64,000 nucleotides of DNA from an uncultured bacterium (GTDB taxonomy: Bacteria; Patescibacteriota; Saccharimonadia; Saccharimonadales; Saccharimonadaceae). Position 1 is the stretch's first letter. Each line of letters starts with the position of its first letter. This document shows, in pieces, positions 25,101 through 26,840 of this stretch. The notes below the pieces were generated by a model, which made no database searches, was not told the DNA's origin, and saw nothing but the letters and a program-made list of their open reading frames with translations. The stretch lies in the NCBI GenBank assembly GCA_903899655.1, contig CAIUKF010000009.1, positions 124,001 to 188,000 of the forward strand, given 5' to 3'. The translations under genes and the position numbers were made by a program.

Positions 25101-26840
25101 GGTAATACGGTCACTAGCTATAACCAATCGGCAACTTTAAGTGATACGACTAATACTATATCGCCATCTAGCACTGATAACTTCCGTAATGGTACTTGGT
25201 CGGGGTCGGTAACTATCACTCAATCTGGTGATAATGTTAATTTAATTGCGACTAGTGGATCGGTACAATCGCCAAGTAACTCGTTTGAGGTCAAAGCCGG
25301 TGTTCAACAGATATTCTTGTCGATTGAAAGTGGCGCTAACCAAGCGGGAACGGCTGGTTCTGAATTAAATACACCATTTGCCGTTCGGGCAGTTGATATG
25401 TATGGCAACTATTTGAAAGATGTCAGTATTAATTATGAAGTAAGCTCTTCACCGACCGATGCAACTGGAGTTATTTTGAAGCCAAGTAATGTCCTGACGG
25501 ATGCAGACGGTATTGCTAGGTCAATATTAACGGTTGGAAACAAAGCCGGTACGTATATTGTTAATGCGTTTGTTGATGGTCGTTCATCATCATCTGTTAA
25601 CTTTTACGTCTCAGCTACATCCGCTAAAGTAATGTCAATCAAAATTTCGCCATCTAATACGACGCTACTTATTAATAGCTCACAGTTATTTACAGCTGAA
25701 GCTTTTGATAGTTACGGTAATCCTATTTCGTCACCAAAAATTATATGGAATGTTGTAGCTGGTGGGGGAGTAATTAATAGCGAAGGTCTATTTACAGCTG
25801 GAACGACAACTAGAATGTTTAACAATACGATTATGGCGACAGTCGATGATGCAGTCGGCTATGCGACGGTTATTGTCACAACTTTGCCTGGTATAACCGC
25901 TGATAGTCGTGATGGTGCTGGTGAATTAGACCGACTATTATTGGCTCCAATCCTGCCTTCGATTGAAACTGGCAAAAGTTTGGCTTTCTCTGTCAAAGCC
26001 GTTGATAAATATAATCAAGAAATAGCATCAAACGAATTAACTTACAACTGGAAGTCAACGGGCGGCGATGTTAGCTTGAATAGCGGTTCGCAAACAACTT
26101 TCACAGCGGCTGATAAGCCAACTAGTGGATCAGTTGAAGTTACTGCAACTCAAACTTCAAAACTAATTACCAAATCGACGTCAACTGACATATCAGTTAC
26201 TCCAAATCCTTTAGGATATATTGCGGTTAATACATCCGCTGATAAGGTAGTTGCAGGAAAAGAATTTGAAGTATCGTTAACGGCTTATGATGGCAACGGC
26301 AATGTTAATGAAAAATTTGCAGGTCCAATCGAATTAAGTGATTCGACAAGTTCAATTTCGCCACGTACAACTGGCAGTTTCGTCAAAGGTATCTGGACTG
26401 GAAACATCAAGATTAACAGTAGTAATGCTATGACTATTGTTCGAGCTACTGGTCAAAAGCTTTATGGCGTTAGTGACAACATTAATATCGATAAAAACAC
26501 TACTGCTATGAGCATGAGCGATGGTAATATCTTGGGTCGTATGTTTAACTTTGTTTCTAGTGTCGGACAATCAATTGCAGATTTCGTTAACTCACTCTTT
26601 AGCGTATCGGCTAGTTTCCCAGAAACTACTAAAAACATTGCAGCCGCAGCAGTGGCATCATTTGGCTTCGTGGCGGCGGCAATTGGGTTCGGTAAGGCAA
26701 TTTCGACTGCTATTGTGGCAATTGGACGTAATCCTTACGCACGGGGCAAGATATTTGGGGCCTTATTCATTGCACTTGTGATTGGTTTGTTGTTTGCTGG
26801 TCTAGCGTTCTTAATTGCAGGATTTATCAAATTCTTATGA
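19119..26840 (+). CDS. Giant surface protein: NHL propellers, Ig-like stalk, C-terminal c-subunit-like rotor hairpin
   Basis: A 2573-residue exported protein. Residues 15-37 form the signal/anchor helix. Residues about 60-780 hold twelve NHL repeats, each ending in a [DN]NNRV[LM]V[YFW] motif, enough for two six-bladed propellers. An FN3-like domain follows (about 787-907), then a long stalk (about 910-2440) of alternating Ig-like domains of two types (AKDxYGN...FxxGxWTG and YDxYxNPI...YxWS). After an amphipathic stretch (2475-2505) come two hydrophobic helices (2507-2530, 2545-2571) joined by a polar loop GRNPYARGK. This hairpin looks like F-type ATP synthase subunit c, including the Arg-Asn-Pro loop that contacts gamma/epsilon, but Leu2557 stands where the ion-binding Asp/Glu belongs. 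Subunit c has both termini outside, which suits an external N-terminal arm. It overlaps the next giant gene by ATGA. Rotor function is inferred. Confidence 0.85.
26631..26837 (+). other. c-subunit-like transmembrane hairpin (domain within the giant protein)
   Basis: Residues about 2505-2573. Helix 1 is Gly/Ala-rich ([18 protein letters not shown]), followed by RNP and helix 2. The classical subunit-c signature is [GSTA]-R-[NQ]-P-x(10)-hydrophobic(2)-x(3)-hydrophobic-x-[DE]. Here G2536, R2537, N2538, P2539, F2550-I2551 and I2555 all fit, and only the final position (codon 26787-26789, TTG, Leu2557) deviates. The domain is directly followed by the stop codon. Confidence 0.8.

Follow-up and report, generated by a model that had tools for sequence, protein, structure and literature searches.

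How does an F1-like ATPase that pumps no ions pass its force through a membrane? The question is open for gliding in Mycoplasma mobile and for antibody release by the MIB-MIP system. The locus described here points to a transmission part that may be identifiable by sequence: a relative of the c ring, its ion site removed and its gamma/epsilon-binding loop kept, fused to domains outside the cell. Such a part would offer a direct and testable answer, and would suggest a use for the motor in host-attached cells. The stretch of DNA analysed, 64 kb of contig CAIUKF010000009.1 (assembly GCA_903899655.1), is termed the window, and all coordinates are positions in it (Table 1).

A c-like hairpin at the end of a giant protein

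The tail of giant protein 1 consists of two hydrophobic helices flanking the sequence GRNPYARGK, and its hydropathy is that of a two-helix membrane hairpin, as in subunit c (~75 residues). Counting along the PS00605 signature from the G-R-N-P loop (10 residues, F-I, A-L-V, I, G) places Leu2557 at the position of the Asp/Glu, which confirms an earlier statement that the tail fits the signature except at this residue.

The preliminary description took the tail for a subunit c hairpin, and profile and sequence comparisons bear this out. Pfam ATP-synt_C (PF00137) covers residues 3-62 of the tail with E 7.5e-5, at a score just below the curated cut-off (23.4 vs 24 bits). A phmmer search of PDB sequences gave 18 matches with a best E of 1.6e-4; ATP synthase c subunits account for 17 of these, and the nine NCBIfam families matched at E up to 10 are, every one, ATP synthase c subunits. 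An hhalign comparison of the giant tails with c subunits of related genomes gives a probability of 95.6 over 60 columns. The Pfam, PDB and NCBIfam matches make a chance resemblance of the hairpin to subunit c very improbable; judged by its sequence, the tail is a subunit c relative that lacks the ion-binding acid.

How often does such a pattern turn up elsewhere? Among 2375 distinct ORFs (666,300 aa) the full PS00605 pattern, lacking only the acid, is present 19 times, in 18 cases within a C-terminal transmembrane hairpin; the set is enriched for F1-like loci, and its value as a control lies mainly in there being no internal hairpin among the occurrences. An AF2 model of the window tail alone, made with no alignment, has a pLDDT of 55. 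Its matches to the c subunit fold (18-30% identity) stand among helical proteins that are unrelated and score as high in Z or higher, and the model is given little weight.

The operon of the window

It is a second, F1-like operon downstream, absent from the preliminary description, that gives the hairpin its significance. The operon opens with giant protein 1 and closes with an F1-like set (b, delta, alpha, gamma, beta, epsilon), and it contains no gene for an a subunit. All genes are on one strand and overlap or almost touch, with 134 bases between the permease and the b-like gene, and the start of giant protein 2 overlaps the stop of giant protein 1.

Table 1. Features of the giant-type operon and of the terminal hairpin, as positions in the 64-kb window
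Feature	Position	Strand	Content or basis
TM-anchored TPR protein, directly upstream of giant protein 1	18370..19077	+	conserved with giant-type cluster
Giant protein 1, 2573 aa	19119..26840	+	signal/TM N-terminal, NHL, Ig-like/Big_1/invasin-like repeats, C-terminal c-like hairpin
c-subunit-like helical hairpin, residues 2505-2573 (last 69)	26631..26837	+	PF00137, PDB, NCBIfam, hhalign
Polar loop G-R-N-P, residues 2536-2539	26724..26735	+	sequence; conserved in relatives
Leu2557 (TTG), position of the subunit c ion-binding Asp/Glu	26787..26789	+	PS00605 spacing
Giant protein 2, 2768 aa	26837..35143	+	N-terminal TM, Kelch, Gly-rich, FN3 domains
ABC ATPase (MacB/FtsE-like)	35147..35959	+	PF00005 E 4e-31; conserved with cluster
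MacB/FtsX-like permease	35962..37167	+	PF12704, PF02687
b-like peripheral-stalk subunit, one N-terminal TM and coiled coil	37302..37814	+	position, TM, weak family matches
delta (OSCP) subunit	37786..38364	+	PF00213 E 1e-13
alpha-like subunit	38364..39899	+	PF00006 E 5e-65; motifs
gamma subunit (central shaft)	39896..40744	+	PF00231 E 2e-28
beta-like subunit, catalytic motifs intact	40744..42159	+	PF00006 E 3.5e-64; motifs
epsilon subunit, 87 aa, beta-sandwich domain only	42129..42392	+	PF02823 E 1.4e-8

The weak matches of the b-like subunit are to the V/A-ATPase E/H and F-ATPase b/delta stalk families. The alpha-like subunit retains the Arg finger (SVSRIG) and has a degenerate P-loop (GERMSGQSD), and the catalytic motifs of beta include ILLFIDN. 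The P-loop Lys/Thr is lost in alpha of the window class; the widespread class described below retains GDSKSGKS.

Homologues of the TPR protein occupy the same place in genomes G007 and G153, and giant protein 2 is conserved in these two and in G020 and G148. The MacB/FtsX-type ABC pair (35147-37167) is present in every readable copy of the giant-type operon and, being always kept, may belong to the machine. The window also carries three tRNA-Met (CAT) genes within its 64 kb (17286-18091, 53313-53389), in a genome of only 0.9 Mb.

Relatives across the Patescibacteria

Homologues of giant protein 1 with the same hairpin are found in G007, G020 and G153, and G148 has the remainder of the giant-type cluster on a short contig. 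The commoner type is a protein of ~260-330 aa (~280 aa in most genomes), in which an N-terminal TM is followed by an ectodomain of ~190 aa and then by the c-like hairpin. Its gene precedes b, delta, alpha, gamma, beta and epsilon, both in the window's family and beyond.

A genome scan with 40 short-type queries yielded 80 named loci, mostly from Candidatus Saccharibacteria. F1-like alpha lies directly downstream of the c-like gene in 73 of these, and the remaining 7 are mostly, though not all, on short contigs. The complete genome of Ca. Saccharibacteria YM_S32_TM7_50_20 (CP025011.1, locus L191) has a short c-like gene and no F1-like alpha within 10 kb. When 380 genomes of the phylum were searched, hairpin-reaching matches were found, among the matches listed, in at least ~60 genomes of ~25 families, and F1-like alpha adjoins the c-like gene in 18 of the 20 loci fetched from other classes. 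The beta P-loop GGAGVGKT is read in 122/136 and GERxREG in 128/136, many contigs being cut.

Did the window class and the widespread class arise together? In an alpha tree with E. coli added and the longest branches removed, the window class and all F1-like sequences are set against the canonical ones with an SH-aLRT of 99, and the window class branches first within the F1-like side. A larger, first tree placed the window class next to canonical F1 with weak support. The trees favour a single origin of the two classes without proving it, and the placement of the window class, a long branch, is uncertain.

The loop and the carboxylate position

The preliminary description predicted that relatives would keep the R-N-P loop and have a hydrophobic residue where the carboxylate should be. 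The prediction is borne out by 122 distinct homologous sequences, 120 of which have G- or S-R-N-P (GRNP in 117, SRNP in 3), with a hydrophobic or small residue at the position in question; one more has IRNP (L237). The only sequence without a loop is an ectodomain-only match that has no hairpin. The residue 18 after the loop Pro is L in 56, V in 25, I in 21, F in 6, A in 4, M and G in 3 each and T in 2. Asp or Glu is found at this position in none of the 122 homologues, nor in the 20 loci from other classes (~140 in all), which contribute ARNP loops too. A Glu six residues earlier, present in 17 of the 122, is not the ion-binding site. The c subunits in ordinary operons of related genomes have Asp at the position in 14 of 17 and Glu one residue earlier in the other 3.

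An ion path?

Might the giant or short c-like chain be a minor, decorated subunit of a normal, ion-conducting F1Fo that uses the canonical a subunit? The window genome (924 kb, 18 contigs) and many others do have a complete normal F1Fo; in the window genome the full ordinary operon is on contig C10 and holds the single PF00119 match. The c-like gene, however, is linked to F1-like genes and not to the canonical operon, and an a-subunit profile run over 187 loci gave no match outside four canonical operons. Seven genomes from different families (G003, G008, G236, G333, G505, G452 and G450) keep a c-like protein yet have no PF00119 or PF00137 match genome-wide. Their estimated completeness is 93-100%, and G333 and G452 are single contigs. 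F1-like genes neighbouring the c-like gene were read in six of the seven, and G236 has an F1-like alpha beside it. In these genomes the F1-like cluster is the sole F-type ATPase seen, and it cannot move ions through an Fo. They contradict a decorated normal rotor as a general explanation, and such a mixed assembly is extremely improbable. For annotation, extra atpA/atpD genes in genomes with the F1-like cluster are no evidence for ATP synthesis.

That a ring has been kept for torque transfer and not for ion transport was the reading put forward at the outset. It is supported by the adjacent F1-like genes, by the clusters without an a subunit and by the genomes that have neither a nor a normal c; the ring and its turning are what we infer.

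Fold of the hairpin and the ectodomain

An AF2 model made with an alignment of 44 short forms has a mean pLDDT of 89.9, with helices at residues 219-251 and 255-289. Residues 214-290 of the short form match c subunits (8jr0, Z 9.2; 2wie, 8.4; 6tqj, 8.3; 4bem, 7.6; 9b0x, 7.6), values to be read with the reservation that helical pairs with Z below ~13 may reflect a common arrangement. Comparison of the predicted structure supports a c-type fold of the short-form hairpin. The short-form ectodomain resembles the C-terminal fragment of phi29 gp12 (3gqh, Z 13.4, 112 residues) and phage capsid cement/head-fibre proteins, which share its fold; here the fold is joined to a c-like membrane hairpin.

Could the hairpin be an ordinary two-TM anchor of a surface protein that is like subunit c by chance? 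The profile scores are near thresholds, as such an anchor would lead one to expect, and the short forms align to c subunits chiefly at the loop (hhalign of the short-form hairpins covers the loop only, with a probability of 71). Seven tails and short forms of different families, compared with 18,950 NCBIfam models, had an ATP synthase c subunit as best match in every case, at E values that are weak for the short forms (0.009-0.16) and ~1e-5 for two giant tails. Against the anchor stand the c subunits among the PDB (17/18) and NCBIfam (9/9) matches of the window tail, the F1 genes in the same operon, the c subunits that are the top fold matches of the hairpin and a loop invariant across families. 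A chance likeness of this kind is very improbable.

Less can be said for a closed ring of the classical kind. It is not assured, because the c matches of the short forms are weak singly and the GxGxG ring-packing motif of helix 1 is missing from them. The missing motif would also suit a static arrangement, in which one or a few c-derived hairpins dock the F1-like head and the surface protein is pushed by conformational change or tension, not by continuous rotation. Comparable schemes are preferred by authors working on mycoplasmas (PMC12994834), who have Type 2 give a crank-like push and Type 3 reset a conformation, and without an a subunit no rotor/stator pair is defined in the membrane. A static dock, however, would not need gamma, epsilon, b and delta, yet all are kept, and the invariant part of the hairpin is the gamma/epsilon-binding loop itself. 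Pushing from a fixed dock is thus an unlikely mode of action, if one with some arguments on its side.

A putative transmembrane motor

In F1Fo the R-N-P loop of subunit c contacts gamma and epsilon, and the c hairpin has its N and C ends outside and its loop inside. The operon is probably an F1-like rotary ATPase that has been rebuilt as a transmembrane torque device, with a rotor that carries extracellular domains. A cytoplasmic F1 head (alpha3beta3, with beta catalytic), tied to the membrane by b and delta as in F1Fo, would hydrolyse ATP and drive gamma/epsilon, and these would grip the G-R-N-P loops of the c-derived hairpins. Several hairpins would assemble into a membrane rotor that turns with gamma. 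No ion would be moved, as the hairpin carboxylate is lost and there is no a subunit. From the topology of c hairpins, with which the positive charges around the loop agree, the domain N-terminal to the hairpin should be exposed outside the cell. In most Patescibacteria this domain is a phage-cement-like barrel of ~190 aa, and in the window it is the NHL/Ig fibre of 2500 aa. The hydrolysis of ATP would then turn or twist the extracellular domains.

What might such a device do outside the cell? Saccharibacteria are found attached to other bacteria, and many of the clusters have fibre-like or secreted proteins at their flanks; adhesion to, or movement on, the host cell is for these reasons the leading guess. 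Two further points speak against a motor. Besides the TM of b there is no evident brake on counter-rotation when the a subunit is absent, and ten chains of 2500 aa each would be hard to accommodate sterically in one ring. The broader proposal, that throughout the Patescibacteria an F1 motor no longer has any part in ion transport and the c ring has become an ion-blind rotor turning structures outside the cell, is only slightly favoured on balance. If it is true, rotary motors have a third role beside ATP synthesis/ion pumping and the flagellum, and an ion-blind rotor might explain the mycoplasma X0.

Relation to known systems

The nearest known systems are in mycoplasmas. The Type 3 F1-like X0 of mycoplasmas is an ATPase tied to surface proteins (PMC12994834, PMC3369863), and its cluster encodes a protein in which a signal peptide and an ectodomain precede two C-terminal, uncharged TMs with a short joining loop (PMC3369863, PMC12994834). 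The X0 proteins of mycoplasmas were judged to have no homology with F0 (PMC3369863). The loci described here have in common with Type 2 (G1, gliding) and Type 3 (MIB-MIP) a non-respiratory cluster of F1-like alpha, beta, gamma and epsilon that is tied to surface proteins, and the order of signal peptide, ectodomain and two C-terminal TMs recurs here, a likeness of architecture only. The differences are that separate b and delta genes are present here and not in mycoplasmas, that the mycoplasma cluster has a 12-TM protein whereas none lies between c-like and epsilon here, and that the hairpin here is recognisably c-derived, with its R-N-P loop. Family scores also keep the two apart. Against the cut-offs of the MSC_0618/0619 and MMOB1660/1670 families, the window alpha scores 358 vs 600 and 258 vs 520 bits and the window beta 443 vs 850 and 398 vs 570 bits. 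NCBIfam models of the mycoplasma two-TM proteins have no match among the c-like proteins.

An N-ATPase was considered and rejected, with scores of 504 vs 752 and 386 vs 750.5 bits for TIGR03305/TIGR03324, no a subunit and no acid. Compared with F-type subunit c (PF00137, PS00605), the hairpin is alike in length, R-N-P loop, topology and fold; it differs in lacking the ion-binding carboxylate and in forming the end of a longer chain, after the extracellular domain or giant fibre to which it is fused. Compared with canonical F1Fo, the catalytic beta, gamma, epsilon and delta are present, but no a subunit is encoded alongside.

A 'symbiotic' type-2/3 F-type ATPase was reported from Omnitrophota (Seymour et al. 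2023, PMC10066038), and one sentence there notes a clustering of its beta with that of Ca. Saccharimonadia. In both cases host-associated nano-bacteria have an additional F-ATPase that is not respiratory. The main text of that report describes alpha/beta and a pilus linkage and never mentions a c subunit or rotor (PMC10066038); the rotor, the lost carboxylate, the ectodomain, the missing a subunit and the phylum-wide spread are described here. Type IV pilin neighbours, as in Omnitrophota, are not a general feature of the present clusters, with pilin-like N-termini in just 7 of 187 loci. No description of an ion-blind c-like rotor was found in the literature searched, which was largely without subscription papers and preprints.

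Neighbouring genes

Several arrangements around the clusters are of interest in their own right. At L243 (genome G366) a single F1-like cluster is flanked by two c-like genes, one of which is separated from b by the gene of a five-TM membrane protein; a similar inserted gene set is present in L242. Another locus (G108:C1:32005-32895, L112:1-8133) has a canonical alpha gene inside a stop-free frame of ~11,000 codons, either a real fusion or chance.

Secreted surface proteins (the QIVNRSLTLKAG... and INQTLSFQGRL... families) flank the F1-like clusters of Saccharibacteria and are often divergently transcribed; examples are at L086/L131, L091, L082 and L115, and one has a CBM_4_9 domain. In other classes, proteins with a MerR-type DNA-binding domain, a single TM and an extracellular part resembling a fibre recur beside the F1-like clusters (L249:9400-11499, L246:2-1792, L251, L253, L244). 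It is odd for a surface fibre to carry a DNA-binding domain.
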